64,000 bases of DNA from Weeksellaceae bacterium TAE3-ERU29 (GTDB lineage: Bacteria > Bacteroidota > Bacteroidia > Flavobacteriales > Weeksellaceae), in the NCBI GenBank assembly GCA_019218445.1, contig JAHUUM010000006.1, positions 1 through 64,000 on the forward strand, read 5' to 3'. Shown here in pieces: positions 13,036-45,092 of the stretch. Position 1 is the first letter of the stretch. The number at the start of each line of letters is the position of its first letter. The position numbers and the translations under genes were made by a program. The notes beneath the pieces are model-generated. The model ran no database searches and was not told where the DNA came from. It saw nothing but the letters and a program-made list of their open reading frames with translations.

Positions 13036-13065
13036 TTAATATTACAATAATATTATACATAAAAA

Positions 13066-13100
13066 AGTGAGGCTGAGTTTTACTCAGCCTCACTTTTTTA
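13066..13100 (+). terminator. Strong terminator after small lipoprotein
   Basis: A perfect 12-bp stem, AGTGAGGCTGAG (13066-13077) with CTCAGCCTCACT (13083-13094), has a five-base loop and a following T run. It isolates the surface-cassette array from upstream transcription. Confidence 0.92.
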
Positions 13101-13113
13101 TAATTTATTTTGT

Positions 13114-13121
13114 TATTTTTG
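13114..13121 (+). promoter_or_regulatory. Promoter of surface cassette A
   Basis: TATTTTTG fits TAnnTTTG. The bases after it (TCATCTTAAAATTA) resemble those after the cassette B and C promoters (CAATCTTA), so the three leader regions are related. Confidence 0.5.
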
Positions 13122-13148
13122 TCATCTTAAAATTATAGATTATAGTAC

Positions 13149-13676
13149 ATGAAGAAACATTTATTTTTTCTTCTTTCATTAAGTCTTGGCTTCACAAGTG
13201 CCCAAGTAGCTATTGGAAAAGAAAACACACACAGTTCTGCCTTACTTGAATTTGAACAAAATAACGGAAAAGGTATTATTTTACCTACCACTACCGGAAC
13301 TCCTACAGAAGTGGGAGCCATTACCTTTAATGTAACTGATGGTATAATTTATTATACCGATAAAAATTCAACACCTGTTGCCCTTAGTGGACAATCGGAA
13401 CAAAAAGGAAAACCACGTACTTTAGACCCATTAATAGCAGAAAACCCAGAAGAGCCTCAAGGGGTGATTATTGGTGCTCAAACCAGTGATGCCGAGGGCG
13501 TATTAATATTAGAGTCTAATAATAAAGCATTGGTTTTACCACATGTAAACGATCCTGTAACTAATATGCCATCTCCCGAGCCGGGAACTATTTGCTATGA
13601 TACCGCCAGTAAATCTATTGCCGTATTTGACGGAACCAACTGGTACTTTTGGAATCATATTAAAACGGATAATTAA
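13149..13676 (+). CDS. Cassette A small surface protein
   Basis: A 175-residue exported protein with a signal peptide (MKKHLFFLLSLSLGFTSA, then QVAIG). It contains two versions of a motif common in Flavobacteriales surface proteins: an ALLEF or LILES strand, a KGIILP or KALVLP strand, a GAITF or GTICYD strand, then a final FDGTNWYFW. This arrangement is like the shaft and head units of adhesin and fibre proteins; that comparison is inference. It differs from the cassette C small protein at only about five residues. The stop is six bases before the large-gene ATG, so the two are co-transcribed. No secretion-sorting C-terminal domain is seen. Confidence 0.8.
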   Translation: MKKHLFFLLSLSLGFTSAQVAIGKENTHSSALLEFEQNNGKGIILPTTTGTPTEVGAITFNVTDGIIYYTDKNSTPVALSGQSEQKGKPRTLDPLIAENPEEPQGVIIGAQTSDAEGVLILESNNKALVLPHVNDPVTNMPSPEPGTICYDTASKSIAVFDGTNWYFWNHIKTDN

Positions 13677-13682
13677 AACAAA

Positions 13683-16600
13683 ATGAAATATTTATATTTA
13701 CTCCTTTTATTAGGGGCTAACTTGGCTTTTGCCCAATTACAACCTTTTACCATTAACGTAACAGCTACACCTGAAACTTGTGATAGAAATGGTACTATTA
13801 GCTGGACAACTAAAGGTACAACAGATGGAACTACCTTATCTTATGCTATATATAAATTACCGGAAGAAAATATAGCTATAAAAACAACACAAGAAAATAG
13901 GGTAGAGAGTTTAGAAGCCGGAACTTATAAAATTGTAGCCACACAAACTAATGAATTTGAAAGTAATAGCACAAGTGAACAAATAACTATATCTGATAAA
14001 AAAATCCCTTTAGTTTTCTCCTTTTTCAAACCCTATTATGGTATATTTGATATATGTGGAGGAGATGCTTCAGTAAAGATAAATGTTAGTAGTGGTAGAG
14101 CTCCCTATGAATATCAAATCTTAGATGAAAATAATCAAATTATTAAAAAATCCAACTCCTCACAAATTAATGGGTTATCTGCGGGTACTTATAAAGTACG
14201 GGTAGTAGATGCCTGTGGAGTAGGTGTTGTAGGATTAAAACCATTAGAAATACAGAAAGTAAGCATAGTGCCTACCAAAGATACCGAAGTTTCTCTAGAA
14301 ACATTTCACCGCCCAGGTAACTGTAAACTCTTTTTAGTTTTTCATGAGGAATTTTCTAAAGATAATACCCCTTCTTTCAATGTCTTTCATAATAATATCA
14401 ATATAGAACTTTCTTTTATAGACCCTAACACTAATCAAAAAATAACTATAACTAATAAAGATGGATTAACAGGTATTGATAATAATAATAATACTAATTG
14501 GAAGTATAATGTAGGTCTAAAAGTTCCTATCTTCTCCGGTAAACAGATACAATACAATTGGCGTATCACAGATAAGTGCGGAAATGAACGACAAGGAACA
14601 TATGAAGTATTACACCCTTATGATGAGTTTAAAATAGAAAGTTATTACAATATCTATAATACTTGCAATAACTCTATTGGTTTCCAAATGGAATTAACCC
14701 CCACTAAAGTCCCTTCATTACTTTCTATTGACGAAATTGTAATAACAGACAAACCCGAAGGGGCTTCATCTGATATATATATTAATACTTATGGCAAAAG
14801 AGTTTCAATAGGAAATTCAAATAGCCCTTTAGCCAAAGAAGGTATTTATAAAGGTTATATTCGATTATGTAGTGGAAGAAAAATATTTTTTGAACATAAT
14901 TATATAAAAGATTCTCAACCTACTACTGAAGAAGAGGCAAAATTTAATATTCAAGATCAATATATCTCTTGTGGAAATAAACGATTTACTATAATCTTTA
15001 ATCGTGGAGTAAAAGGTTACATTTCTAATATTAAAATTAATAATCAAACGATTAATTTTGTTTCAGAATATAAAAGAGCTAAGATATATGGATTAAACGC
15101 AGGTAACTATACAGCAGTAGTAACAGATGAATGCGGCAAAGAACATACGATTAATTTTGAAGTCCCTCCTTATAATGAAGTAGAACCAAAAGAAGTAAGT
15201 ATAAAATCAAATTGTGGCTCTATTAAAATAAGGTCTATAGGAGGCAGTTCCCGTAAATATTTACAAATATATGATACTGATTTAGGAGGATGGACTAGCC
15301 CTACTAGAGATGATAAAGAGATTTTTGACCCTGAAAACAACAACAATGTACCTTACAGCCAGGGGGATGAATTTTATAGTGAGATTAGTGTTCATAAAGC
15401 AAATAACGCTCGCTACCGAGTAATCGAAGTCTATCCAAATTATATTTATGATGATACTACAAAATCTGAAGTCTCTGGAAAAGTATGTTATAAAGTGATT
15501 AAAGAATTTACTTTTAATAAAGAATTTAATATAAAAAATATATATTCTTTTAAATGTGAAAATAATTTATATAATGTTGGGATATCTATGATGAACCCAC
15601 TAGAATCCTATACTTATCAAATCGTAAAGGATCCTAACTCTACTACAGAGGAAAATATTATTAAAAATAATGGAGAACAACAATTATTCACCGAGTTAGC
15701 TCCGGGTAAATATTATTTTAGAGTATTAGATAACTGTGGTAATTTCATTACAAGTGAATATGATATCACTACTTTAGGAACTCCTAAAATCCGTACAGTT
15801 ACTAACTGTGATTCACAAGAAGTGAAGTTCGCAGTTGATGGAATAGATTATTTAAATTTTGAATGGTACAAAGAAGGTGAAGAAAGTACTATTTTAAGTA
15901 CAAATAACAGCTTAGATTTACAAAGCTTTACCACAGACGAAGCAGGAACCTATAAATTGCATTTAACATCCCCTATCACTACCGCTTGTGTAAATGAAGT
16001 ATTGAGCGTAAAAGTATCAGAAGACCCTTTCAATACACCGCATGCCGGTAAAAATAGTACACATACCATCTGTGGAGATGCACCGGTAAGATTAAGCGAT
16101 TACTTACAAGAGGCAAACCCTGGAGAAGGAGTAGACAGCTATGGTGTTTGGCAAAGAGTAAATACAGCAAATGATGCTGGTGCTTTAGTGGGTGATCAAT
16201 GGTTTGCTAACTTAGCTACACCGGGTCTCTATGAATTCAATTATGTTGTAGACGGGTTATGTTCGGGACAAGATGTGGCAACCATTACTTTAGATACACG
16301 TGATTTAGTAGCACCTACCGTAACTCAATGCCCGTCAGATATCACTGCTTTCTCTACGAATGATATTAACGCAGTGGCTACTTGGAGTCTTCCAACTTTC
16401 GACGATAATTGTAAAGTATATGTAACCAGTACTCACCAACCGGGAGAAACATTCCCTATGGGAAATACAACGGTTACCTATACCGCGGAAGACAGAGGTG
16501 GAAACACAGCTACTTGTACTTTTAACGTAACGGTTAATCGTTTTACTTGTGCCAAAAAGCCAAATACAGGAGCTCCACAAGGTAACGTAAAAGTAGGAAT

Positions 16601-16859
16601 ATCCAACTTAAACCGTACAACACAAACTACGGAATGGATTAATAGTTACAACGATGGTTGGATTGCGATGGAATCTAAAACCAAAGGTTTTGTCATTACC
16701 CGAGCCGATGATGTAAATCATCCGGAAACGGCAATTGAAAATCCAGTAGAAGGTATGATTGTTTTTGATATTGATGAAAACTGTATCAAATTATACGATG
16801 GAACCAAATGGGCATGTGTCGCACAAGGATGTAATGATGATAATGCATCTAATCCATAA
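13683..16859 (+). CDS. Cassette A large adhesin-like protein
   Basis: A 1,058-residue exported protein with signal peptide 1-17. In order: SprB-like repeat units with the signature C-x-G, PYEYQ, LSAGTYKVRVVDACG (about 30-200); a long unassigned core with further AGNYTAVVTDECG- and APGKYYFRVLDNCG-type strands (to about 715); an Ig-like segment (WYKEGEEST to SVKV); a DAGALVGDQW-type segment; a HYR domain (PTVTQCPSDITAF to NVTVNRF, about 875-955); and a C-terminal fibre-like motif ending IKLYDGTKWACV. The last ~340 residues are nearly identical to those in cassettes B and C, whereas 30-715 is diverged. No recognisable type IX sorting domain is present. Probably a surface adhesin; ligand unknown. 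Confidence 0.82.
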   Translation: MKYLYLLLLLGANLAFAQLQPFTINVTATPETCDRNGTISWTTKGTTDGTTLSYAIYKLPEENIAIKTTQENRVESLEAGTYKIVATQTNEFESNSTSEQITISDKKIPLVFSFFKPYYGIFDICGGDASVKINVSSGRAPYEYQILDENNQIIKKSNSSQINGLSAGTYKVRVVDACGVGVVGLKPLEIQKVSIVPTKDTEVSLETFHRPGNCKLFLVFHEEFSKDNTPSFNVFHNNINIELSFIDPNTNQKITITNKDGLTGIDNNNNTNWKYNVGLKVPIFSGKQIQYNWRITDKCGNERQGTYEVLHPYDEFKIESYYNIYNTCNNSIGFQMELTPTKVPSLLSIDEIVITDKPEGASSDIYINTYGKRVSIGNSNSPLAKEGIYKGYIRLCSGRKIFFEHNYIKDSQPTTEEEAKFNIQDQYISCGNKRFTIIFNRGVKGYISNIKINNQTINFVSEYKRAKIYGLNAGNYTAVVTDECGKEHTINFEVPPYNEVEPKEVSIKSNCGSIKIRSIGGSSRKYLQIYDTDLGGWTSPTRDDKEIFDPENNNNVPYSQGDEFYSEISVHKANNARYRVIEVYPNYIYDDTTKSEVSGKVCYKVIKEFTFNKEFNIKNIYSFKCENNLYNVGISMMNPLESYTYQIVKDPNSTTEENIIKNNGEQQLFTELAPGKYYFRVLDNCGNFITSEYDITTLGTPKIRTVTNCDSQEVKFAVDGIDYLNFEWYKEGEESTILSTNNSLDLQSFTTDEAGTYKLHLTSPITTACVNEVLSVKVSEDPFNTPHAGKNSTHTICGDAPVRLSDYLQEANPGEGVDSYGVWQRVNTANDAGALVGDQWFANLATPGLYEFNYVVDGLCSGQDVATITLDTRDLVAPTVTQCPSDITAFSTNDINAVATWSLPTFDDNCKVYVTSTHQPGETFPMGNTTVTYTAEDRGGNTATCTFNVTVNRFTCAKKPNTGAPQGNVKVGISNLNRTTQTTEWINSYNDGWIAMESKTKGFVITRADDVNHPETAIENPVEGMIVFDIDENCIKLYDGTKWACVAQGCNDDNASNP

Positions 16860-16881
16860 GATTTTTAAAGTTTGAATTAGA

Positions 16882-16918
16882 ATAGCCATTTTTTATTAAC
16901 AAAAATGGCTATTTATAT
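16882..16918 (+). terminator. Terminator of cassette A
   Basis: A perfect 12-bp stem, ATAGCCATTTTT (16882-16893) with AAAAATGGCTAT (16901-16912). It differs from the terminators of cassettes B and C, which match each other. Confidence 0.75.
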
Positions 16919-16972
16919 TTTAAAATTAAGTATTTTTAAGTAAATAAAGTTAGTTTTTAACCTATTTATATA

Positions 16973-16980
16973 TATATTTG
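16973..16980 (+). promoter_or_regulatory. Promoter of surface cassette B
   Basis: TATATTTG followed by CAATCTTAAATTTA. The same arrangement precedes cassette C. Confidence 0.6.
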
Positions 16981-17002
16981 CAATCTTAAATTTACTCTAA
17001 TT

Positions 17003-17524
17003 ATGAAAAAACATTTATTTTTTCTTCTCTCATTGAGTTTTGGGTTTGCAAGTGCCCAAGTAGCCATTGGAAAAGAAAACACACACAGTTCTGCCTTACT
17101 TGAGTTTGAACAAAATAATGGGAAAGGTATTATTTTACCTACCACTACCGGAACTCCGGTAGAAGTAGGTGCTATTACATTTAATAGCACAGACGGCATT
17201 GTTTACTATACAGATAAAGATGCTAATCCTGTAGCCCTTAGTGGACAATCAGGAGAACGAGGAACATCCCGTACTTTAGACCTGTTAGTAGCAGGAAACC
17301 CAGAAGAGCCTCAAGGCGTAATTATTGGTGCACAAACCAGTAATGCCGAGGGGATATTAATATTAGAATCTAATAATAAAGCATTGGTTTTACCACATGT
17401 AAATGACCCTGTAACTAACATGCCATCTCCCGAGCCGGGAACTATTTGCTATGATACCGCCAGCAAATCTATCGCCGTATTTGACGGGACTAACTGGTAT
17501 TTCTGGAATCATCTTAAAAACTAA
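17003..17524 (+). CDS. Cassette B small surface protein
   Basis: A 173-residue paralogue of the cassette A and C small proteins, with the same signal peptide, two-motif layout and FDGTNWYFW ending. It is the most diverged of the three, mainly in the middle (VEVGAITFNSTDGIVYY, DKDANPVALS, GERGTSRTLDLLVAG); the first ~50 and last ~60 residues remain almost identical. The large gene begins 13 bases after its stop, against six in A and C. Confidence 0.8.
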   Translation: MKKHLFFLLSLSFGFASAQVAIGKENTHSSALLEFEQNNGKGIILPTTTGTPVEVGAITFNSTDGIVYYTDKDANPVALSGQSGERGTSRTLDLLVAGNPEEPQGVIIGAQTSNAEGILILESNNKALVLPHVNDPVTNMPSPEPGTICYDTASKSIAVFDGTNWYFWNHLKN

Positions 17525-17537
17525 TAACGAAATCAAA

Positions 17538-20500
17538 ATGAAACAATTATATTTATTTTTACTCTTGACGGCAAACATGGCTTTTGCCCAATTGCAACCT
17601 TTTACAATAGACGTAACGGCAACACCCGAAACCTGTAACCGTAACGGTGGACTTAGCTGGACGGTAAATGACAAAACAGCGGGTTCTACCATTACTTACT
17701 CTATCTATAAATTACCTAACCAGAGTACAGCAATTGCTACAACAGACCAAACTCAGATTACTGGATTAGAAGCCGGGAGCTATAAAATAGTAGCTACCCA
17801 AACTAAAAATAATAATACTAATAATACTAGTGAAACGGTAACCATTGCAGATAATACAATTCCTGTATTATATAATATAAGTAATATTATAGATGAGTTT
17901 TGTGGAAACGATGGAAAGGTTACAATAAATGTAACAAGTGGAACGGCTCCTTATGAATATCAACTTTTAGCAGCTGACAATACAGTACTCACTACCCAAA
18001 CATCTCCCACCTTTACCGGATTAGCTGCCGGAACTTATAAAGTACGAGTAAATGATGCTTGTGGAATAGGGGTAGTTAAAGATGTAATTATAAAAAGTGT
18101 TACTTTAAGAAACTTTTCTTATAACTATGCAAACAGAGATCGTACTTGTGAAAGGTACATTAATCTTTATGAAGGCTTTAATGGTAATATCGAGGGGCAT
18201 ACCATTACCCATAAAATCTCCTATACTAATCCTAACACAGGTGCTTTAATCGAAAAAGAAAAAACAACCACTATAACAAGTACAACTCCTGGTTATGGTA
18301 TTAATAACGGTAATAGTTATTTTTTCGGTAGAATTGATTTAGACGAGCACTTCCCCGGACAAACAATTACTTACACTTACACTATTACTTATGATGATTG
18401 CGGAACTCAAAAAACCGGCACATTTGATGCTTTAAATATAGGCTATGAAACAGAAATAGACGGTTACCGAAGAGGGTCTAGAGATCAATGTGGTTTTTCT
18501 CGTAGTATGATAATAAATTTAAGAAAGGTGGATAACCATTATGCTTTTGATCTTACTGACATTCAATTCACAACCATGCCATCAGGAGTGACTCAAAATG
18601 ATCTTACCGCAAAATTAGGTAACGATGGGGATCTTTATATCTCTTCTACCGCAAATGACCTACCGGATGGTTTATATGAAGGTACACTTACTATTTGTAA
18701 TGGGCATACCTTACCTTTTTCTTTTAATTATACAAAAAATCGAATTATTAGCAATCCTAACTATGCTCTAAATATCACTTCACAGACCAATGTTTGTGGC
18801 AGTAAAGTAGCTTCATATCAGGTAAGTCCATACTATAGTAATAATGTTGAATTTATTGATTTACCTGCCGGCTCTAACTATAAAATAAATTCTAATACCA
18901 CAGGATTATTGTTCAATGTACCTCCAGGAGTATATCATGCTCGTTTTACAGATAGCTGTACAGGCCAACAAGTACCTGTAGAATTTACAATCAACGAATA
19001 TGCTGAACACCCAAATGATGAAGATGTAAATATTTTACCTCTCTGTAGCGGATTTAATTTAAGATTGAATACTAATTATTTTGACCCTAATACCGCTCTT
19101 TTTGTTTACATGTTACAAATTTATGATAACGCATTGGGAGGATGGACAACACCGATAGCAAGAAATAACCGTGTAGCATTTGATCCAAATAATCCTACAA
19201 CAGCTGATAATCATGGACTTTATCTAAGGGAAAATCAATTAGAAGAATTGATTAATAAAGCAAACATGATTTTTGACGGGAAATTTAGAATAATACGAGT
19301 TAATAGGACGAATGTTTATGAGAATTATCAATCTGGGCGATATAATAAGGCATGTTTTAATGTTATAAAAGAATTTGAGCATTATTCCACTATTACTATT
19401 GCAAATATCAATTCTTGGTTGTGTACAGACGGTACCTACAATGTAGGAGTTGGTGTAAAAGGGGTGGGAAACTATACCTATCAAATTGTACAAGATAGAA
19501 ACTCTACAGACGCGGGAAATATACTTGTTGATAATGGTACTAATCCTTTGTTTACTAATTTAGCGCCGGGTACTTACCTATTCCGTGTAATAGATGATTG
19601 TGGTAACTTCTCTACTACGGAATATGACATTACTACTTTGGGAGCACCACAAATCCGTACGGTTGCAGATTGTGCTACACAAGAATTACGTTTTGTAGTG
19701 GATGGTGTAAATTATCTAAATTTTAAGTGGTATAAAGAAGGTGAAGAAAGTACTATTTTAAGTACAAGTAATGAATTAAACTTAGGTAACTTTACTCCAG
19801 CTAAAGCAGGAACCTATAAATTACATTTAACATCGCCTATCACTACCGCTTGTGTAAATGAAGTATTGAGCGTAAAAGTATCAGAAGACCCTTTCAATAC
19901 ACCGCATGCCGGTAAAAATAGCACACACACCATCTGTGGAGATGCACCGGTAAGATTAAGCGATTACTTACAAGAGGCAAACCCTGGAGAAGGAGTAGAC
20001 AGCTATGGTGTTTGGCAAAGAGTAAATACAGCAAATGATGCCGGTGCTTTAGTGGGTGATCAATGGTTTGCTAACTTGGCTACACCGGGTCTCTATGAAT
20101 TCAATTATGTTGTAGAGGGTCTATGTTCGGGGCAAGATGTGGCAACCATCACTTTAGATACACGTGATTTAATAGCACCTACCGTAACTCAATGCCCGTC
20201 AGATGTCACTGCTTTCTCTACGAATGATATTAACGCAGTGGCTACTTGGAACACGCCAGCTTTTGACGATAATTGTAAAGTATACGTAACCAGTACTCAC
20301 CAACCGGGAGAAACATTCCCTATGGGAAATACAACGGTTACCTATACTGCAGAAGACAGAGGTGGAAACACAGCTAATTGTACTTTTAACGTAATTGTAA
20401 AACGTTTTACTTGTGCCAAAAAGCCAAATACAGGAGCTCCACAAGGAAATGTAAAAGTAGGAATATCCAACTTAAACCGTACAACGCAAACTACGGAATG

Positions 20501-20723
20501 GATTAATAGTTACAACGATGGTTGGATTGCGATGGAATCTAAAACCAAAGGTTTTGTAATTACCCGAGCCGATGATGTAAATCATCCGGAAACGGCAATT
20601 GAAAATCCGGTAGAAGGTATGATTGTTTTTGATATTGATGAAAACTGTATCAAATTATACGATGGAACTAAGTGGGCATGTGTCGCACAAGGATGTAATG
20701 ATGATAATGCATCTAATCCATAA
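17538..20723 (+). CDS. Cassette B large adhesin-like protein
   Basis: A 1,061-residue paralogue of the cassette A large protein. The start is ATG 17538, which gives the signal peptide MKQLYLFLLLTANMAFA. An in-frame extension back to 17451 lies inside the small gene and is rejected. SprB-like units (SGTAPYEYQ, LAAGTYKVRVNDACG) are followed by a core diverged from A and C. Then come the shared region from about WYKEGEESTIL onwards, the HYR domain (PTVTQCPSDVTAF) and the LYDGTKWACV end. From about 19729 to the terminator its DNA is nearly identical to cassette C. Predicted surface adhesin, co-expressed with its small partner. Confidence 0.82.
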   Translation: MKQLYLFLLLTANMAFAQLQPFTIDVTATPETCNRNGGLSWTVNDKTAGSTITYSIYKLPNQSTAIATTDQTQITGLEAGSYKIVATQTKNNNTNNTSETVTIADNTIPVLYNISNIIDEFCGNDGKVTINVTSGTAPYEYQLLAADNTVLTTQTSPTFTGLAAGTYKVRVNDACGIGVVKDVIIKSVTLRNFSYNYANRDRTCERYINLYEGFNGNIEGHTITHKISYTNPNTGALIEKEKTTTITSTTPGYGINNGNSYFFGRIDLDEHFPGQTITYTYTITYDDCGTQKTGTFDALNIGYETEIDGYRRGSRDQCGFSRSMIINLRKVDNHYAFDLTDIQFTTMPSGVTQNDLTAKLGNDGDLYISSTANDLPDGLYEGTLTICNGHTLPFSFNYTKNRIISNPNYALNITSQTNVCGSKVASYQVSPYYSNNVEFIDLPAGSNYKINSNTTGLLFNVPPGVYHARFTDSCTGQQVPVEFTINEYAEHPNDEDVNILPLCSGFNLRLNTNYFDPNTALFVYMLQIYDNALGGWTTPIARNNRVAFDPNNPTTADNHGLYLRENQLEELINKANMIFDGKFRIIRVNRTNVYENYQSGRYNKACFNVIKEFEHYSTITIANINSWLCTDGTYNVGVGVKGVGNYTYQIVQDRNSTDAGNILVDNGTNPLFTNLAPGTYLFRVIDDCGNFSTTEYDITTLGAPQIRTVADCATQELRFVVDGVNYLNFKWYKEGEESTILSTSNELNLGNFTPAKAGTYKLHLTSPITTACVNEVLSVKVSEDPFNTPHAGKNSTHTICGDAPVRLSDYLQEANPGEGVDSYGVWQRVNTANDAGALVGDQWFANLATPGLYEFNYVVEGLCSGQDVATITLDTRDLIAPTVTQCPSDVTAFSTNDINAVATWNTPAFDDNCKVYVTSTHQPGETFPMGNTTVTYTAEDRGGNTANCTFNVIVKRFTCAKKPNTGAPQGNVKVGISNLNRTTQTTEWINSYNDGWIAMESKTKGFVITRADDVNHPETAIENPVEGMIVFDIDENCIKLYDGTKWACVAQGCNDDNASNP

Positions 20724-20744
20724 GATTTTTAAATATTAATTAAC

Positions 20745-20780
20745 AAACCCCGTTTCAATTTACTTGAAACGGGGTTTTTC
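20745..20780 (+). terminator. Terminator of cassette B
   Basis: A 14-bp perfect stem, AAACCCCGTTTCAA (20745-20758) with TTGAAACGGGGTTT (20764-20777), then T and C. Cassette C ends with the same stem and the same preceding sequence. Confidence 0.88.
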
Positions 20781-20831
20781 TTTAAAATAGATTTTTTTGA
20801 CCGATATGATTCATTCTGAACTAATTATTTA

Positions 20832-20839
20832 TATATTTG
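20832..20839 (+). promoter_or_regulatory. Promoter of surface cassette C
   Basis: TATATTTG followed by CAATCTTACATTTA, matching the cassette B promoter region. It lies 24 bases before the ATG at 20863, so upstream in-frame codons are not used. Confidence 0.6.
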
Positions 20840-20862
20840 CAATCTTACATTTATTGATAAAT

Positions 20863-21390
20863 ATGAAAAAACATTTATTCCTTCTTCTTTCATTAAGCCT
20901 TGGGTTCGCAAGTGCCCAAGTAGCTATTGGAAAAGAAAACACACACAGTTCTGCCTTACTTGAATTTGAACAAAATAACGGAAAAGGTATTATTTTACCT
21001 ACCACTACCGGAACTCCTACAGAAGTGGGAGCCATTACCTTTAATGTAACTGATGGTATAATTTATTATACCGATAAAAATTCAACACCCGTTGCCCTTA
21101 GTGGACAATCGGAACAAAAAGGAAAACCACGTACTTTAGACCCATTAGTAGCAGAAAACCCAGAAGAGCCTCAAGGGGTGATTATTGGTGCTCAAACCAG
21201 TAATGCCGAGGGGGTATTAATATTAGAATCTAATAACAAAGCATTGGTTTTACCACACGTAAACGACCCTGTAACTAATATGCCATCTCCCGAGCCGGGA
21301 ACTATTTGCTATGATACTGCCAGCAAATCTATTGCCGTATTTGACGGTACCAACTGGTACTTTTGGAATCATATTAAAACGAATAACTAA
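20863..21390 (+). CDS. Cassette C small surface protein
   Basis: A 175-residue exported paralogue with signal peptide MKKHLFLLLSLSLGFASA. It is almost identical to the cassette A small protein, including the SEQKGKPRTLDPL stretch that differs in cassette B. ATG 20863 is chosen over an in-frame extension to 20797 because the extension crosses the promoter and lacks the signal peptide at its N-terminus. The stop lies six bases before the large gene, as in cassette A. Confidence 0.8.
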   Translation: MKKHLFLLLSLSLGFASAQVAIGKENTHSSALLEFEQNNGKGIILPTTTGTPTEVGAITFNVTDGIIYYTDKNSTPVALSGQSEQKGKPRTLDPLVAENPEEPQGVIIGAQTSNAEGVLILESNNKALVLPHVNDPVTNMPSPEPGTICYDTASKSIAVFDGTNWYFWNHIKTNN

Positions 21391-21396
21391 AACAAA

Positions 21397-24300
21397 ATGA
21401 AATATTTATATTTACTCCTTTTATTAGGGGCTAACTTGGCTTTTGCCCAATTACAACCTTTTACCATTAACGTAACAGCTATACCTGAAACTTGTGACAA
21501 CAACGGTGAGTTAAATTGGACTACAGAAGGAACAACTCCTGGTTCCACTATCATCTATTCAATTTATAAACTGCCCAATGAATCTACGGCTATTGCTACT
21601 ACAGACAAAACGAAGATAGAAGGCTTAGATTCAGGAGATTACAAAATTACAGCTACTCAAACAAAGAGAAATGAGATTAATCATTTTACGGCAACAGCTA
21701 GCATTTCAGACGAGACTATACCGATACAATTTTCTATTAAAGATATTAGAAACGTATTTTGTGGCAATGATGGTAGCTTTAATGTAAATGTTTCTTCTGG
21801 GACACCACCCTATACGTATCAACTTTTAAACGACAATAATGAGGTTACATACAGCCAAAACGATCCGCAATTTACGGGGCTTGTAAAGGGGCAATACAAA
21901 GTACGAGTAAGAGATGCTTGTGGTATTGGTAGCGTTAAAACGGTAAACCTGGATTTAATAGACCCCGAACCAAGGCTAACAAGGGTTACTTTAGATCAAT
22001 CTGATCTTGCTGATCTTGGATGTAATAGATACATAAAATTCTATGAAGTTTTTAACCAAAGTGGTTTCGAAAAAGAATTCTTTTTCGAAATACGTTATAC
22101 CCATCCAAACACTGGGGAAGAAATCGTGGTAAAGGAGAGCACGCAAAATTCAGGTAACAATAGCAATACTGATAAGTATGCTAAAAAAATAAATATAGAA
22201 ACCTTTCCGGGAGAGACTATTACTTATAGCTGGAAAATAACTGATAAATGTGGGACAGTACGTACCGGTAGCTTTAAGGCTTTTAATAAGTATTACGACA
22301 GAAAGATAAATTTTATGAGGAATGTAACATCTTCCCAAAACTGCGGACACTCCTATGGTTTTAAGATCAACACAACAGAATTACAAACCCCTACCGCTAG
22401 TCGATTAACCGATATAACATTTACTGAAGTTCCAGAGGGGGTGGAAAAAAGCAACATTCCAACTTCAAATCCCCATCCTTATAATGAGTACATTATTGGC
22501 TCCAATTATAAAACTTTAGTCCCAGGTATCTATAAAGGGAACATTAGTGTATGCGGTGGAAAACAAACTATTCCTTTTGAATACAATTATCAGCCTTCTA
22601 CAGAGATGGTAAGTACGCATTCTCGTGTAGAGGGCCCTTATGCTAAAAGAAATAGCTGTGGGTATACCTATCAATATATTATTTTTAGGAATACAGGAGG
22701 AATAAAAAGCATTAACTTATTAAACCCACCCACGACAGGTAATATAAGGTCTAATCCAAATGGTAAGGATTTTTCAAAGGTAGACTTGTATGATTTTCCT
22801 GCGGGCACCTATCAGTTTGAGATATTCGACAATTGTGGAAATTCTGACACTTTAAACGTTACTGTAGATGCTATTCCCGAGGTGATTCCTGGTGTTATCA
22901 ATGTAGAACGCGTATGTGGTGGCTTCAATATTTTGGGGGTACAGAATGCAAAAAATGTTGATATACTTCTTGCTTATCGCAAACTGCAAATATATGATGA
23001 AGAATTGGGGGGATGGACAACGCCAAAAACCAATATATCCCGTCAAATCCATGAAATAGATAGTGCTTACGTTGATCCTCATAAAGCTTTTGATTTAGAT
23101 TATGACTATTCTCTAGGTCTGAATTTAAATACACGTTCAGACATTCAATTTGAAGGGCGTTTTCGTTTAATAGAATTATATGAAACTAAAAAGTATAATC
23201 CTGAGACAAATAAAGAATATTTTTATTATTGCTATGAAGTTTTAGAAGAATTTGAGTACAGTAATCAACCCATACTTAATAATATCTACTCTTTCGAGTG
23301 TACAGACGGCACATATAACGTAGGCCTCAGTGCCAAAGGTGGCGTAACACCTTATACCTATCAAATTGTAAAAGACCCTAATTCTACTGATGATGATAAT
23401 ATAACCATAAACAATGGCAGTAACCAACTCTTTACCAATTTAGCACCTGGTAAATATTACTTTAGGGTGTTAGACGATTGTGGGAACTTCATAACCACAG
23501 AATATGACATTGTAACCCTGGGGACACCGCAAATCCGTACCGTTACCAATTGTGATACCAAAGAACTGAAATTTATATTAGATGGTGTAGACTACCTAAA
23601 CTTTAAGTGGTATAAAGAAGGTGAAGAAAGTACTATTTTAAGTACAAGTAATGAATTAAACTTAAGTAACTTTACTCCAGCTAAAGCAGGAACCTATAAA
23701 TTACATTTAACATCGCCTATCACTACAGCTTGTGTAAATGAAGTATTGAGCGTAAAAGTCTCGGAAGACCCTTTCAATACACCGCATGCCGGTAAAAATA
23801 GTACACATACCATCTGTGGAGATGCACCGGTAAGATTAAGCGATTACTTACAAGAGGCAAATCCGGGAGAAGGAGTAGACAGCTATGGTGTTTGGCAAAG
23901 AGTAAATACAGCAAATGATGCTGGTGCCTTGGTAGGTGATCAATGGTTTGCTAACTTAGCTACACCGGGTCTCTATGAATTCAATTATGTTGTAGACGGA
24001 TTATGTTCAGGACAAGATGTGGCAACCATCACTTTAGATACACGTGATTTAGTAGCACCTACCGTAACTCAATGCCCGTCAGATGTCACTGCTTTCTCTA
24101 CGAATGATATTAACGCAGTGGCTACTTGGAACACGCCAACTTTTGACGATAATTGTAAAGTATATGTAACCAGTACTCACCAACCGGGAGAAACATTCCC
24201 TATGGGAAATACAACGGTTACCTATACCGCGGAAGACAGAGGTGGAAACACAGCTAATTGTACTTTTAACGTAATTGTAAAACGTTTTACTTGTGCCAAA

Positions 24301-24603
24301 AAGCCAAATACAGGAGCTCCACAAGGAAATGTAAAAGTGGGTATATCCAACTTAAACCGTACCACGCAAACCAACCAGTGGATCAATAGCTACAACGATG
24401 GATGGATTGCGATGGAATCTAAAACTAAAGGTTTTGTAATTACCCGAGCCGATGATGTAAATCATCCGGAAACGGCAATTGAAAATCCGGTAGAAGGTAT
24501 GATTGTTTTTGATATTGATGAAAACTGTATCAAATTATACGATGGAACTAAGTGGGCATGTGTCGCACAAGGATGTAATGATGATAATGCATCTAATCCA
24601 TAA
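21397..24603 (+). CDS. Cassette C large adhesin-like protein
   Basis: A 1,068-residue exported paralogue. Its first ~27 codons and leader are virtually identical to cassette A. The core (about 30-735) is its own version, with SprB-like units such as SSGTPPYTYQLL and KGQYKVRVRDACG. From about 23606 to the end it is nearly identical to cassette B, with HYR domain and LYDGTKWACV end. By eye the core uses noticeably more G/C-ending codons than its flanks or the A core, which suggests a donor with different composition. A short tract near 24336-24412 (protein TNQWINSYN instead of TTEWINSYN) also differs from both paralogues inside otherwise identical sequence. Function inferred as for cassette A. 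Confidence 0.82.
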   Translation: MKYLYLLLLLGANLAFAQLQPFTINVTAIPETCDNNGELNWTTEGTTPGSTIIYSIYKLPNESTAIATTDKTKIEGLDSGDYKITATQTKRNEINHFTATASISDETIPIQFSIKDIRNVFCGNDGSFNVNVSSGTPPYTYQLLNDNNEVTYSQNDPQFTGLVKGQYKVRVRDACGIGSVKTVNLDLIDPEPRLTRVTLDQSDLADLGCNRYIKFYEVFNQSGFEKEFFFEIRYTHPNTGEEIVVKESTQNSGNNSNTDKYAKKINIETFPGETITYSWKITDKCGTVRTGSFKAFNKYYDRKINFMRNVTSSQNCGHSYGFKINTTELQTPTASRLTDITFTEVPEGVEKSNIPTSNPHPYNEYIIGSNYKTLVPGIYKGNISVCGGKQTIPFEYNYQPSTEMVSTHSRVEGPYAKRNSCGYTYQYIIFRNTGGIKSINLLNPPTTGNIRSNPNGKDFSKVDLYDFPAGTYQFEIFDNCGNSDTLNVTVDAIPEVIPGVINVERVCGGFNILGVQNAKNVDILLAYRKLQIYDEELGGWTTPKTNISRQIHEIDSAYVDPHKAFDLDYDYSLGLNLNTRSDIQFEGRFRLIELYETKKYNPETNKEYFYYCYEVLEEFEYSNQPILNNIYSFECTDGTYNVGLSAKGGVTPYTYQIVKDPNSTDDDNITINNGSNQLFTNLAPGKYYFRVLDDCGNFITTEYDIVTLGTPQIRTVTNCDTKELKFILDGVDYLNFKWYKEGEESTILSTSNELNLSNFTPAKAGTYKLHLTSPITTACVNEVLSVKVSEDPFNTPHAGKNSTHTICGDAPVRLSDYLQEANPGEGVDSYGVWQRVNTANDAGALVGDQWFANLATPGLYEFNYVVDGLCSGQDVATITLDTRDLVAPTVTQCPSDVTAFSTNDINAVATWNTPTFDDNCKVYVTSTHQPGETFPMGNTTVTYTAEDRGGNTANCTFNVIVKRFTCAKKPNTGAPQGNVKVGISNLNRTTQTNQWINSYNDGWIAMESKTKGFVITRADDVNHPETAIENPVEGMIVFDIDENCIKLYDGTKWACVAQGCNDDNASNP

Positions 24604-24624
24604 GATTTTTAAATATTAATTAAC

Positions 24625-24657
24625 AAACCCCGTTTCAAGTAAATTGAAACGGGGTTT
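24625..24657 (+). terminator. Terminator of cassette C
   Basis: Stem AAACCCCGTTTCAA (24625-24638) with TTGAAACGGGGTTT (24644-24657). The 3' untranslated sequence before it is the same as in cassette B. Confidence 0.85.
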
Positions 24658-41724: not shown

Positions 41725-43935
41725 TTAATCCTGGATACAACGAACACTCATCCCATCGGCCCAGCTTCCTTTAGTCTGGTTCGGATCCGCCCAGTGCTTA
41801 CTCATATAAAATACATAAGCCGATCTCTCTCTCCCCTCGACAACAGCCGTTGACGACGCATACCAAGCGTATTCACCCACCTGTCTCACTTCACCTGCAT
41901 AATCGGAACGGTAGCCCGCATTTATTAGGTTTGGTAATAGGGTCTGATTGTACCATTCGTAAGTGACCACGCCATCTGAATGACCGGTGATAGCCTCATG
42001 AACAGCCACCCACTCCTCATGGGTCGGCACATGGAACCCTGTAGGACAAGGGTTATTAGGCTTACCACTTCGCCACAATTCTACATTGGCTCCGGAAGCA
42101 TCATTTGAACCGTTTGATACCCAACTATATTTATTTGAATAATTAGATAGAATAAACTTCCCAACGATACTGGAAGGAGACGTTGCCTGCCAATTATTTG
42201 CTCTCGTATTAATAGTTGGAGAATATCTATACTCATGACCGTCCGTAGGGCGCTGCCATTGGTATAAACCTCCGTAAATTTTCGGTATAGCATAGCCAGA
42301 CGCTCCAGTTTCACTTATAGTAGGGTCAAACGCAGCAGAACCTAATTTTGCGGCAGCTGCCCCTAAGTTCAAGTTTAACCATGTTTTATTGTATCCAGTG
42401 GGCGTAGTTACTTGTACCGGTAAATACACAAAGTTATGGACTCCATCTCCAAATTTCTTATCAAGTATACCTCCTATTCCCTTTAATACTACTTGGAAGT
42501 TACTTCCGTTCATATCTACATTAAAGGTAGCAATGTCATAGGTTGCACCGGGTGCTAATTGCCTTACTAAATATTCTCCGTCACCTCCTACTTCTATCGT
42601 TCCTGTTAAATTCCCTGCCGCATTAAAGGTATTTGGCTGTATATTTAAAGTCAACTCATTAGTATCATTATTTTGCCCCGGCGCAGACGTTTGGGTAATA
42701 CTTACGGCATTATAACTTCCTTGTCCATTGGTATAAGGGATTTCTAAAGTAACTTTTTCTGCTCCGTTGTTTATCTTCCCTTGTAGGGTGGTACTATTAT
42801 ATACCATAGAAACTATGTAACGTTCTCTGTTACTAAGGGTAGCGGAACCTAAACCTACTTGAATACTTTGGTCTGCCTGTAAACCTAATTTATCAAAGGT
42901 AGCAGTTAAATTCCCGCTTTCAGGAGTGCCTGTTAATTTATAAATTAAAGTTTTGGTTTCTCCTCCACTTAAGGATACATCATTGTTTTGGTTAGGGGCA
43001 ACTTGTATATTACTTGTTCCGTTTTGGATTGTTACTGCATCAGAAAAATCAACATTATTAATCGCTGCAAATCCATTGTTCTGTAACTTAAATTTTACTT
43101 TGTTCGCATCGGTTAATGCCACTCCGCTTATATATTGTCCTTCAAAGCCTGCAGATGATACTGCTACACTTTGGGATTGTGCACTCCCTGCATCCGGTAA
43201 ACACTGCCATTGGTGCGCTCCGTTTACTATCCCTTGATACATCTCTATACACTTTTTAGTGGTGTTATAAATCAACATACCTACTTTGGTGTCTACAAAT
43301 TTTGAACGTTGATCTGAACTTACATTGGGGATATTTAAGCCTTGGGGTTTGGTTTCATCCCATGTTGAGTTATACGAAATCTCCATTGAACCTTTCGGAT
43401 CGGTGGTATTGATTCCTACTTTCCCTCCTGTAAAGTTTAGGTTATGATTGTCTAAGTTTACCTCTCTGTCTCCCGAAAGTGTTCCGTTTTGGCTATAGAA
43501 ACTCGCTAAGCTTACTCCTGAACCAAGGGGTTTCCATCTTCCACCGGCTAAATTCCCTGAGGTGTTTCCCGTAGGATTACTAAAATAATAAAAACCTTCT
43601 TTTAAATCTAACGTATATGTTCCTGTGGCAGGATCATCTATCGTAGCATTTTCTTCTACATGAGTATTGTAAACCAACATGCCATCAAATGCCGTTGGGA
43701 ATACCAAACCTAACCCATCGAATAAATCGGTTTTAAATTTAAACGTGGTTAAATTAGTTCTTGGAAATACGATTCCTTTCCCTACACTCGGATATGCCGA
43801 TTGAGAGGACGCATCTATAAACGGATTTTGATTTAAAATGTCTGCATTTACAGGAACATTTGTTTTTATCTGTGCTTGTGTTTTAGGTAAGGATATCAAA
43901 CCTAAAAGTGATGCTATGATGATATATATTTTCAT
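41725..43935 (-). CDS. Cassette D large protein with FISUMP domain
   Basis: 736 residues with a signal peptide (MKIYIIIASLLGLISLPKTQA). The N-terminal ~270 residues contain fibre-like units: KGIVFPRTNL, GMLVYNTHVE, KVGINTTDPKGSMEIS, GMLIYNTTKKCIEMYQ. A beta-rich middle follows. The last ~200 residues form a FISUMP domain (IYGGLYQWQR, NPCPTGFHVPTHEEWVAV, YAWYASSTAV, GMSVRCIQD), a C-type-lectin-like fold common in Bacteroidetes surface proteins. The LVYNTxxKxxEMYxG motif is the same building block as at the ends of cassettes A-C. No type IX sorting domain was recognised. It follows the small gene by 27 bases. Predicted adhesin. Confidence 0.85.
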   Translation of the reverse strand: MKIYIIIASLLGLISLPKTQAQIKTNVPVNADILNQNPFIDASSQSAYPSVGKGIVFPRTNLTTFKFKTDLFDGLGLVFPTAFDGMLVYNTHVEENATIDDPATGTYTLDLKEGFYYFSNPTGNTSGNLAGGRWKPLGSGVSLASFYSQNGTLSGDREVNLDNHNLNFTGGKVGINTTDPKGSMEISYNSTWDETKPQGLNIPNVSSDQRSKFVDTKVGMLIYNTTKKCIEMYQGIVNGAHQWQCLPDAGSAQSQSVAVSSAGFEGQYISGVALTDANKVKFKLQNNGFAAINNVDFSDAVTIQNGTSNIQVAPNQNNDVSLSGGETKTLIYKLTGTPESGNLTATFDKLGLQADQSIQVGLGSATLSNRERYIVSMVYNSTTLQGKINNGAEKVTLEIPYTNGQGSYNAVSITQTSAPGQNNDTNELTLNIQPNTFNAAGNLTGTIEVGGDGEYLVRQLAPGATYDIATFNVDMNGSNFQVVLKGIGGILDKKFGDGVHNFVYLPVQVTTPTGYNKTWLNLNLGAAAAKLGSAAFDPTISETGASGYAIPKIYGGLYQWQRPTDGHEYRYSPTINTRANNWQATSPSSIVGKFILSNYSNKYSWVSNGSNDASGANVELWRSGKPNNPCPTGFHVPTHEEWVAVHEAITGHSDGVVTYEWYNQTLLPNLINAGYRSDYAGEVRQVGEYAWYASSTAVVEGRERSAYVFYMSKHWADPNQTKGSWADGMSVRCIQD

Positions 43936-43962
43936 TTTGATTTTATTTTAAATGATGATTGA

Positions 43963-44577
43963 TTATAATGAGGTAGCGATCCAATGCCATTGGTTATCTG
44001 TATCTTGAAAAGAAGTATAACATCTGGTAAAACCTGCATTAATTGTTTCATGTCCTGCTACTACATTGGTAATAACTACTTGTTTTGCACCTGTTCCATA
44101 AGGTGCAGAGGTAGCATTTCTAAAACAAATGGTTCTGTTTTTATATTCATCAGTTACGACTGGCATAGCAAGTCCTTCTGCGTCTGTAAAAGCGATTATA
44201 TGATCATCCGGTTGAATATCTGAAGCTGAAAAAGTAGCTTCTCTATAGATTCTTACCTTTTCATAAACAGCTCCTATTGCATTTCCTACTTTTGCCCATG
44301 ATGTTCCATTCCAATAGTAATAACCTGCAGGGGTTACACTTCCGTTTCCGTCATTCCATACTAACAGTCCTGCTGTATTTGCACTTCCGTTTAATGCTTC
44401 GGTTCTACTGTTTAATGATACTGACGGTAATACTACGCCTTTCTTTTCTCCTGTTTTGTTTTTTATATGGAATACCGCATCAGGTGCTATGTCTCCATTG
44501 TTTTCTGTGTTAATGCCTACCTGTGCAAATGTTACACCGGTTAAGACAAGTGCTAACGTTGTAAATACTCGTTTCAT
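43963..44577 (-). CDS. Cassette D small surface protein
   Basis: 204 residues, signal peptide MKRVFTTLALVLTGVTFA then QVGINTENNGD. The fibre-like unit AVFHIKNKTGEKKGVVLPSV, LLVWNDG, GYYYWNGTSWAKV corresponds to that of the cassette A-C small proteins. A second, different beta-rich half (EKVRIYREATFSASDIQPDD, QVVITNVVAGHETINAGF) ends in QWHWIATSL. It precedes the FISUMP gene and is probably co-transcribed with it. The order, small then large, is the same as in cassettes A-C although the sequences are only distantly related. Confidence 0.78.
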   Translation of the reverse strand: MKRVFTTLALVLTGVTFAQVGINTENNGDIAPDAVFHIKNKTGEKKGVVLPSVSLNSRTEALNGSANTAGLLVWNDGNGSVTPAGYYYWNGTSWAKVGNAIGAVYEKVRIYREATFSASDIQPDDHIIAFTDAEGLAMPVVTDEYKNRTICFRNATSAPYGTGAKQVVITNVVAGHETINAGFTRCYTSFQDTDNQWHWIATSL

Positions 44578-44632
44578 AATTCTTTAATTTTTAATTGTTA
44601 ATATTTAGTTTTTAATTGTTTCTTTTGTTTTC

Positions 44633-44851
44633 AAGTCATTGCGAAGAATGAAGCAAGCTCTGGATAATCTTGTTAGGGATTGCCACGAGCAAGCTCTCGC
44701 AATGACGTGTGTTTTAATTTTGTTCATTCTTATGAGACCCTGAAACAAGTTCAGGGTGATACTGAGTGCTTTCTCATCATTGCTGTCATGCCAACCTTGT
44801 TTCAGCATTGTACGCATAAAGAGATTGCTTCGTAAACTCGCAATGACGTGT
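44633..44851. repeat. Composite repeat, right flank of cassette D
   Basis: One MITE-like unit (44633-44707), a palindromic segment (ACCCTGAAACAAGTTCAGGGT, then CTTTCTCATCATTGC and GTCATGCCAACCTTGTTTCAGCAT) and a truncated second MITE-like unit (about 44819-44851). This is directly oriented and homologous along its length to 41092-41379. Confidence 0.85.
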
Positions 44852-44896
44852 GTTATATTTTTTACTTTTTCATTGTTAGTTTTTATTTTATATAAA

Positions 44897-45092
44897 AAGC
44901 CTGCTCCCCCAACACACACAGATAAGAACAGGCAGACAACCGAATATAAGAAACAGTTTACTTTAAAACTTAACTCGGTTGATGAACTGAAAAGACAAAT
45001 GTTATTTTTAAACTCTTGAGAAGTTAATCCTAAAATAAAAAATACGAAAAAAACCGTATCTCCCTGTAAAAGGGAAATACGGCTTTTTTTTA
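44897..45092. other. Gene-free stretch with opposed hairpins
   Basis: A minus-strand hairpin with T run (GCCTGTTC/GAGCAGGC, 44897-44933) and a plus-strand terminator (CCGTATCTCCCT/AGGGAAATACGG, 45054-45082, then eight T) lie here. No convincing gene needs either. A 58-codon frame (44843-45019) with one hydrophobic segment lies between them; it starts inside the repeat and is considered doubtful. Confidence 0.4.

Follow-up and report, generated by a model that had tools for sequence, protein, structure and literature searches.

The small and large exported proteins encoded by a triple cassette in Weeksellaceae bacterium TAE3-ERU29 share, by profile comparison, a homologous beta unit of about 50 residues, present as one copy in a C-terminal domain (CTD) of the large protein and as two copies in the small protein. 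This pairing of CTD and small protein recurs across a bacterial family. An earlier note on this DNA knew of no described system of this exact form, and none was found in the literature searched. The explanation that we favor, and consider reasonably probable, is that a cassette would encode a cargo, namely the large protein, and also the small protein, which would complete the C-terminal docking module of that cargo as its second half. The window analyzed is 64,000 nucleotides long and belongs to a genome of 2.37 Mb in 52 contigs.

Three tandem, same-strand cassettes occupy positions 13114-24657 of the window, each consisting of a promoter-like box, a small exported gene, a large exported gene and a hairpin terminator. 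The six genes alternate strictly (S1 B1 S2 B2 S3 B3) and no other gene lies between cassettes. Coordinates, terminators and boxes confirm this layout, which the earlier note had described. The features, all on the plus strand, are:

13059-13101, plus strand: terminator of the upstream gene (20-pair stem, then a T run), which insulates cassette 1
13114-13121, plus strand: promoter-like TAnnTTTG box of cassette 1, TATTTTTG, 28 nt before the ATG
13149-13676, plus strand: S1, small partner gene, 175 aa, signal peptide and two homologous units
13683-16859, plus strand: B1, large gene, 1058 aa, with signal peptide, SprB/Ig-like middle, HYR and CTD
13833-15900, plus strand: diversified middle of B1, approximate limits, dS 1.1 to saturated against the other copies
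16524-16859, plus strand: B1 CTD, CTD profile E 7.6e-45
16880-16914, plus strand: cassette 1 terminator, hairpin
16973-16980, plus strand: promoter-like box of cassette 2, TATATTTG
17003-17524, plus strand: S2, small partner gene, 173 aa
17538-20723, plus strand: B2, large gene, 1061 aa
17688-19770, plus strand: diversified middle of B2, approximate limits (dS)
20388-20723, plus strand: B2 CTD, CTD profile E 8.0e-45
20745-20777, plus strand: cassette 2 terminator, hairpin
20832-20839, plus strand: promoter-like box of cassette 3, TATATTTG
20863-21390, plus strand: S3, small partner gene, 175 aa
21397-24603, plus strand: B3, large gene, 1068 aa
21547-23650, plus strand: diversified middle of B3, approximate limits (dS)
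24268-24603, plus strand: B3 CTD, CTD profile E 6.8e-45
24625-24657, plus strand: cassette 3 terminator, hairpin

The small products (173-175 aa) and the large products (1058-1068 aa) all carry an N-terminal Sec-type signal peptide with AQ as its last residues, as judged by eye. The TAnnTTTG boxes at 13114, 16973 and 20832 lie 23-28 nt 5' of each small-gene ATG. Since the motif by itself occurs at chance level across the window (99 found, 98 expected), the promoter calls rest on position and on an identical 16-mer common to the boxes of cassettes 2 and 3. Terminator-like sites numbered 19 in the window and 7.4 (sd 3.0) in shuffled sequence. The gap from small to large gene is 6-13 nt and that from large gene to the next small gene 139-143 nt; therefore, the transcription unit in the window is small gene, then large gene. 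The description of the large proteins as SprB-like/HYR held in full for HYR (PF02494), which was detected by Pfam in B1-B3 at 56-59 bits against a cut-off of 21.7, and in part for the SprB repeat, which was above its cut-off in B2 and B3 and below it in B1.

The three units are alike in layout, as had been noted, but not uniformly alike in sequence, and their mosaic structure had been overlooked: dS is about 0.1-0.5 in the ends (the small genes and the final ~316 aa of the large ones) and exceeds 1 or is saturated in the middle of the B genes. Identity to S3 was 97% for S1 and 90% for S2, and identity to B3 was 60% for B1 and 62% for B2. In the aligned cassettes, identity along most of the small gene is 94-100% for copies 1 and 3 and about 75-96% for copy 2; it is 86-100% among copies in the final ~1 kb of the large gene and about 40-70% between these two regions. 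Small-gene dS was 0.13 for S1-S3 and 0.47 for S2 against the others, and the last ~276 codons of the B genes gave 0.10-0.25; values above 1 or saturated span alignment codons 50-790. The large genes in the window are mosaic, and it is their middle that has diversified. Because amino-acid constraint cannot give a step in dS, either the ends have been homogenized or the middles exchanged. The B middle was missing from three congeneric species, where the genes after pdxA are different ones and the cassette is absent, and was patchy in other genera (one genome per species compared).

These patterns would fit tandem duplication plus recombination in the near-identical ends, with the module held constant while the adhesin middle diversifies. 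That the window encodes surface-variable adhesins is fairly probable. On another account, the three cassettes would together serve antigenic or receptor variation, as a locus in which identical ends recombine, adhesin middles are reshuffled and the small gene is a mere passenger. The sharp dS step at the limits of the variable middle and the absence of the adhesin from the three sister species, with its patchiness elsewhere, agree with this account, but it leaves the small gene beside unrelated enzymes in other places unexplained and no invertible element was seen; we regard it as quite unlikely.

A search of the source genome with B3 showed that, outside the cassettes, only the last ~100 residues match, and that they do so on other proteins: two PL8 lyases, a 2429-aa protein, a 402-aa protein and a reprolysin-type protease. 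The small gene adjoins three of four of these extra CTD loci. The ~100-aa end of the large protein is a portable CTD that also occurs on unrelated exported proteins. Profiles of seven rows (CTD) and six rows (small protein) were run on 59 related genomes, the window's own included. A small gene was adjacent to 94 of 106 strong CTD genes, downstream in 88 (counting B1 and B2, whose downstream small gene is that of the next cassette) and upstream in 6. Homologues of the large protein's shared end are not, as the earlier note allowed they might be, routinely found without the small gene, since only 12 of the 106 CTD genes had none adjacent. The strong lists of one genome (G032) held 13 genes of each kind. 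A scan of named genomes used the small protein alone, with the closer alignment subset, the diverse alignment being too variable; 57 of its 58 small loci had an adjacent CTD gene, nearly always upstream, in Chryseobacterium, Empedobacter, Apibacter, Flavobacterium, Pedobacter, Sphingobacterium and other genera. The large-to-small gap was 2-125 nt in 62 pairs.

Gene order elsewhere is mostly large then small, and the small-first order of the window is in the minority. In another genome, G038, the small gene also comes first and some proteins have the CTD unit in an internal position, so the CTD is not always a terminal signal. At two loci of that genome (L162 5028-15543; L163 2652-14320), the small gene heads runs of large-protein genes, with the CTD unit internal in the last. 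The sole small locus without a CTD neighbor was in Riemerella anatipestifer (L118 8956-12618); the protein encoded after this lone gene has an apparent type A tail of the type IX secretion system (T9SS).

At 41725-44577 on the minus strand, the window encodes a neighboring exported pair (736 and 204 aa) with a distant version of the CTD/small-protein unit; the larger protein matches the CTD profile at E 2e-9, and the pair, which falls in neither the CTD nor the small family, is possibly a homotrimeric relative. Beside the lyase pair (L018 10407-14531, minus strand), a further three exported proteins carry the generic unit, and two of them end in a tail-fibre-like region and then a coiled coil. 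Open frames at 44605-44919 and at L023 9576-10268 have a peptide stretch in common (LKQGWH..NDEKALSITLNLFQG, VIARACSW) and are apparently an interspersed DNA repeat, not a gene. The small proteins matched no Pfam family beyond a weak DUF2793, had no relevant NCBIfam match and gave weak matches to tail-fibre PHROGs. The "tandem genes" pep25/lbp26 of Flavobacterium collinsii (PMC9950754) were considered as relatives and set aside, as there was no evidence of a relation.

The cargo is diverse. Among 42 CTD proteins, curated models identified chondroitinase AC, hyaluronate lyase, reprolysin, DUF11, TSP_3, cadherin, CshA, L-type lectin, IgGFc-binding and RCC1 domains, among others, and HYR/SprB proteins were also represented. 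The pairing is not specific to SprB/HYR adhesins, since polysaccharide lyases and a metalloprotease are among the cargos. Matches labeled "BamM" on 12 cargo proteins were discounted; the match inspected was short and far below the cut-off, and these were taken as shared repeat domains rather than as membership. Within the source genome, the PL8 lyase paralogues with the CTD are 806 and 808 aa long and those without it 708 and 717 aa, ending just before the CTD. The reprolysin of this genome has the CTD, whereas all seven homologues scanned from other genomes have TIGR04183. The CTD therefore behaves as a module, because PL8 paralogues exist with and without it and reprolysin homologues swap tails. 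In a sister species (L160 9135-10939; G003 C1 1771422-1777653), the reprolysin gene is apparently split, with transposase-like genes nearby, and its CTD and the small gene persist.

Comparison of profiles gave probabilities of 99% for the CTD with the C-terminal half of the small protein, 97% for the two halves of the small protein and 96.5% for the CTD with the N-terminal half. Many pairs share a reading frame, which allowed CTD and small protein to be read through as one chain, with stop codons read as glycine for modeling only. AlphaFold gave pLDDT 85 and pTM 0.84 for nineteen read-through pairs, with disorder confined to the linker and signal peptide, and pLDDT 78 and pTM 0.81 for a second query from another lineage; these models rest on 17-19 sequences and on three homologous repeats that AlphaFold may pack too readily, and the window's own pair was not among the queries. 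The small protein (~170 aa) was modeled as short-stranded beta units, and the CTD and small protein are predicted to fold into one compact three-unit body, that is, we infer, a pseudo-trimer of one plus two units. The confident complex in the models bears out the earlier suggestion that small and large proteins belong together, and it is very likely that they form a complex. Assigning them the roles of "base or shaft and adhesin" was not upheld: the small protein is two copies of the CTD's unit, and a docking or cap subunit therefore fits better than a shaft.

When the first read-through model was searched with Foldseek, no PDB or viral hit reached significance, with weak ones on a second look, and a PDB sequence search for relatives returned none at a significant E-value. 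In the second-look alignments, each unit was placed on one segment of TSP3 (583-625) or Mtd (5-48), namely the CTD and small C-unit of model 1 and the small N-unit and CTD of model 2, with each match weak (Z 2.8-4.6 over ~40 residues). Both Mtd and the tailspikes are trimeric. All three units may point to the same kind of phage domain, though the likeness is weak and homology to phage proteins is open to doubt.

The partners appear mostly to travel and change together. Distances between small proteins and between CTDs were correlated over 87 pairs (r = 0.59, Mantel p = 0.001) and, within a single genome, over nine paralogous pairs (r = 0.90, p = 0.0005); another genome, with four pairs, showed no such correlation. 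Where the CTD ends in a CP motif, the small partner ends in W/F-x-P in 28 of 44 cases, against 0 of 43 for other CTDs, and the C-terminal classes of the partners are associated (p = 1e-11, a statistic that ignores relatedness). Ordinary tandem duplication of an adhesin gene and an unrelated neighbor, with functionally unlinked products, would explain the three near-identical flanks as recent duplication or homogenization. It is extremely improbable given the family-wide adjacency, the counts of which already contradict it, the homology of the products, their co-variation and the predicted complex. A small protein that acts as a periplasmic chaperone, preventing homotrimerization of the CTD and released before the cargo reaches its site, would be consistent with about one co-transcribed small gene per cargo and with a separate signal peptide on a protein built of the CTD's own unit. 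We consider a chaperone improbable: in the models, the CTD's unit and the two units of the small protein pack compactly together and nothing resembles a device for release, and the partner tails co-vary.

By the curated models, the CTD is none of the T9SS types A, B and C. The 42 CTD proteins had no match to type A (TIGR04183/PF18962), although the same library finds type A in the protease homologues, or to type C (NF033708). Type B (TIGR04131) was found neither in the 42 proteins nor in B1-B3, and PF13585 was absent from B1-B3 and from the matches listed for the 42 proteins (25 of 38 Pfam families). The source genome had only 9 type A matches, compared with 8 strong CTD proteins. SprA was present in this genome and in every genome with the two-gene system. 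The system occurred in 0 of 5 SprA-less relatives and in 0 of 72 in a phylum sample, but carriers outside one family are so few that chance could account for this, and the SprA association is weak. A better argument for T9SS than co-occurrence with SprA is that, in one protease family, the CTD takes the place of a type A tail.

The module could instead be a device that serves assembly or anchoring and takes no part in export, the cargo leaving by another route or staying periplasmic and a tail-fibre-like knob of CTD and small protein linking it to a fixed structure. The weak likeness of the unit to trimeric phage tail domains, the internal CTD units of G038 and the lack of matches to T9SS CTD models favor such a device; the tail replacement on the same protease family and the restriction of the system to genomes with SprA count against it, and we judge it unlikely. 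A sorting or anchoring role of CTD and small protein together is likely. T9SS dependence and a surface location of the cargo would follow from the docking-module explanation, and a T9SS route for CTD cargo is slightly favored.

According to the docking-module explanation, both products would cross the inner membrane by Sec, as their signal peptides suggest, and assemble into a hetero-oligomeric version of the beta-prism that three identical phage tail chains build, a prediction resting on weak likeness. The composite knob would deliver the cargo to the outer-membrane exterior, or hold it there, in place of a type A or B T9SS CTD. The small protein would take the role of a PorP/SprF-like partner for type B, but as a soluble two-unit protein with no barrel. 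More tentatively, and with considerable doubt, cargo may be tagged here on a principle that is new and differs from the known T9SS CTD classes: a secretion or anchoring tag, incomplete in the cargo, would become active only once a separate protein supplies the remaining two-thirds of a pseudo-trimeric fold, for up to 13 different cargos per genome. Surface proteins of Bacteroidota are currently predicted by three known T9SS tail classes. If the explanation is true, a fourth, two-part class, unnamed by curated models and covering adhesins and degradative enzymes, would span the six genera named above, the location of many unannotated proteins would become predictable from sequence, and there would be a handle on how T9SS accepts different signals. 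The window's tandem mosaic would offer a natural example of a docking module that stays fixed while the adhesin it serves diversifies.

T9SS tails are of types A, B and C, and a partner, usually encoded in a cluster with the cargo, anchors type B cargo (PMC10202324, PMC9143113). Type B with PorP/SprF (SprB-SprF, PG1035-PorP) resembles the present system in having a conserved C-terminal domain on large surface proteins and a dedicated partner usually encoded close by, with several pairs per genome (PMC9143113, PMC10202324). In contrast, type B models do not match the CTD, and the partner described here is a protein of ~175 aa with two CTD-like units rather than a 14-stranded barrel. Type A CTDs (TIGR04183/PF18962), which act with PorV, are likewise C-terminal on mixed cargo, and the reprolysin family carries them in other genera, but there is no sequence match and a dedicated partner gene lies here beside nearly every cargo. 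The type C CTD (NF033708, ChiA) is also a C-terminal region of ~100 residues, for which we know of no described partner gene; its curated model does not match the CTD. SprB/HYR adhesins share SprB repeats (copies 2 and 3) and HYR with the B cargo, whereas B1-B3 have no type B CTD, are ~1060 aa rather than giant and neighbor a small protein gene instead of sprF. As for the trimeric phage receptor-binding protein Mtd and tailspike CBA120 TSP3, each unit matches one segment of these proteins weakly and in structure only, and the three units of the present system would come from two different chains.
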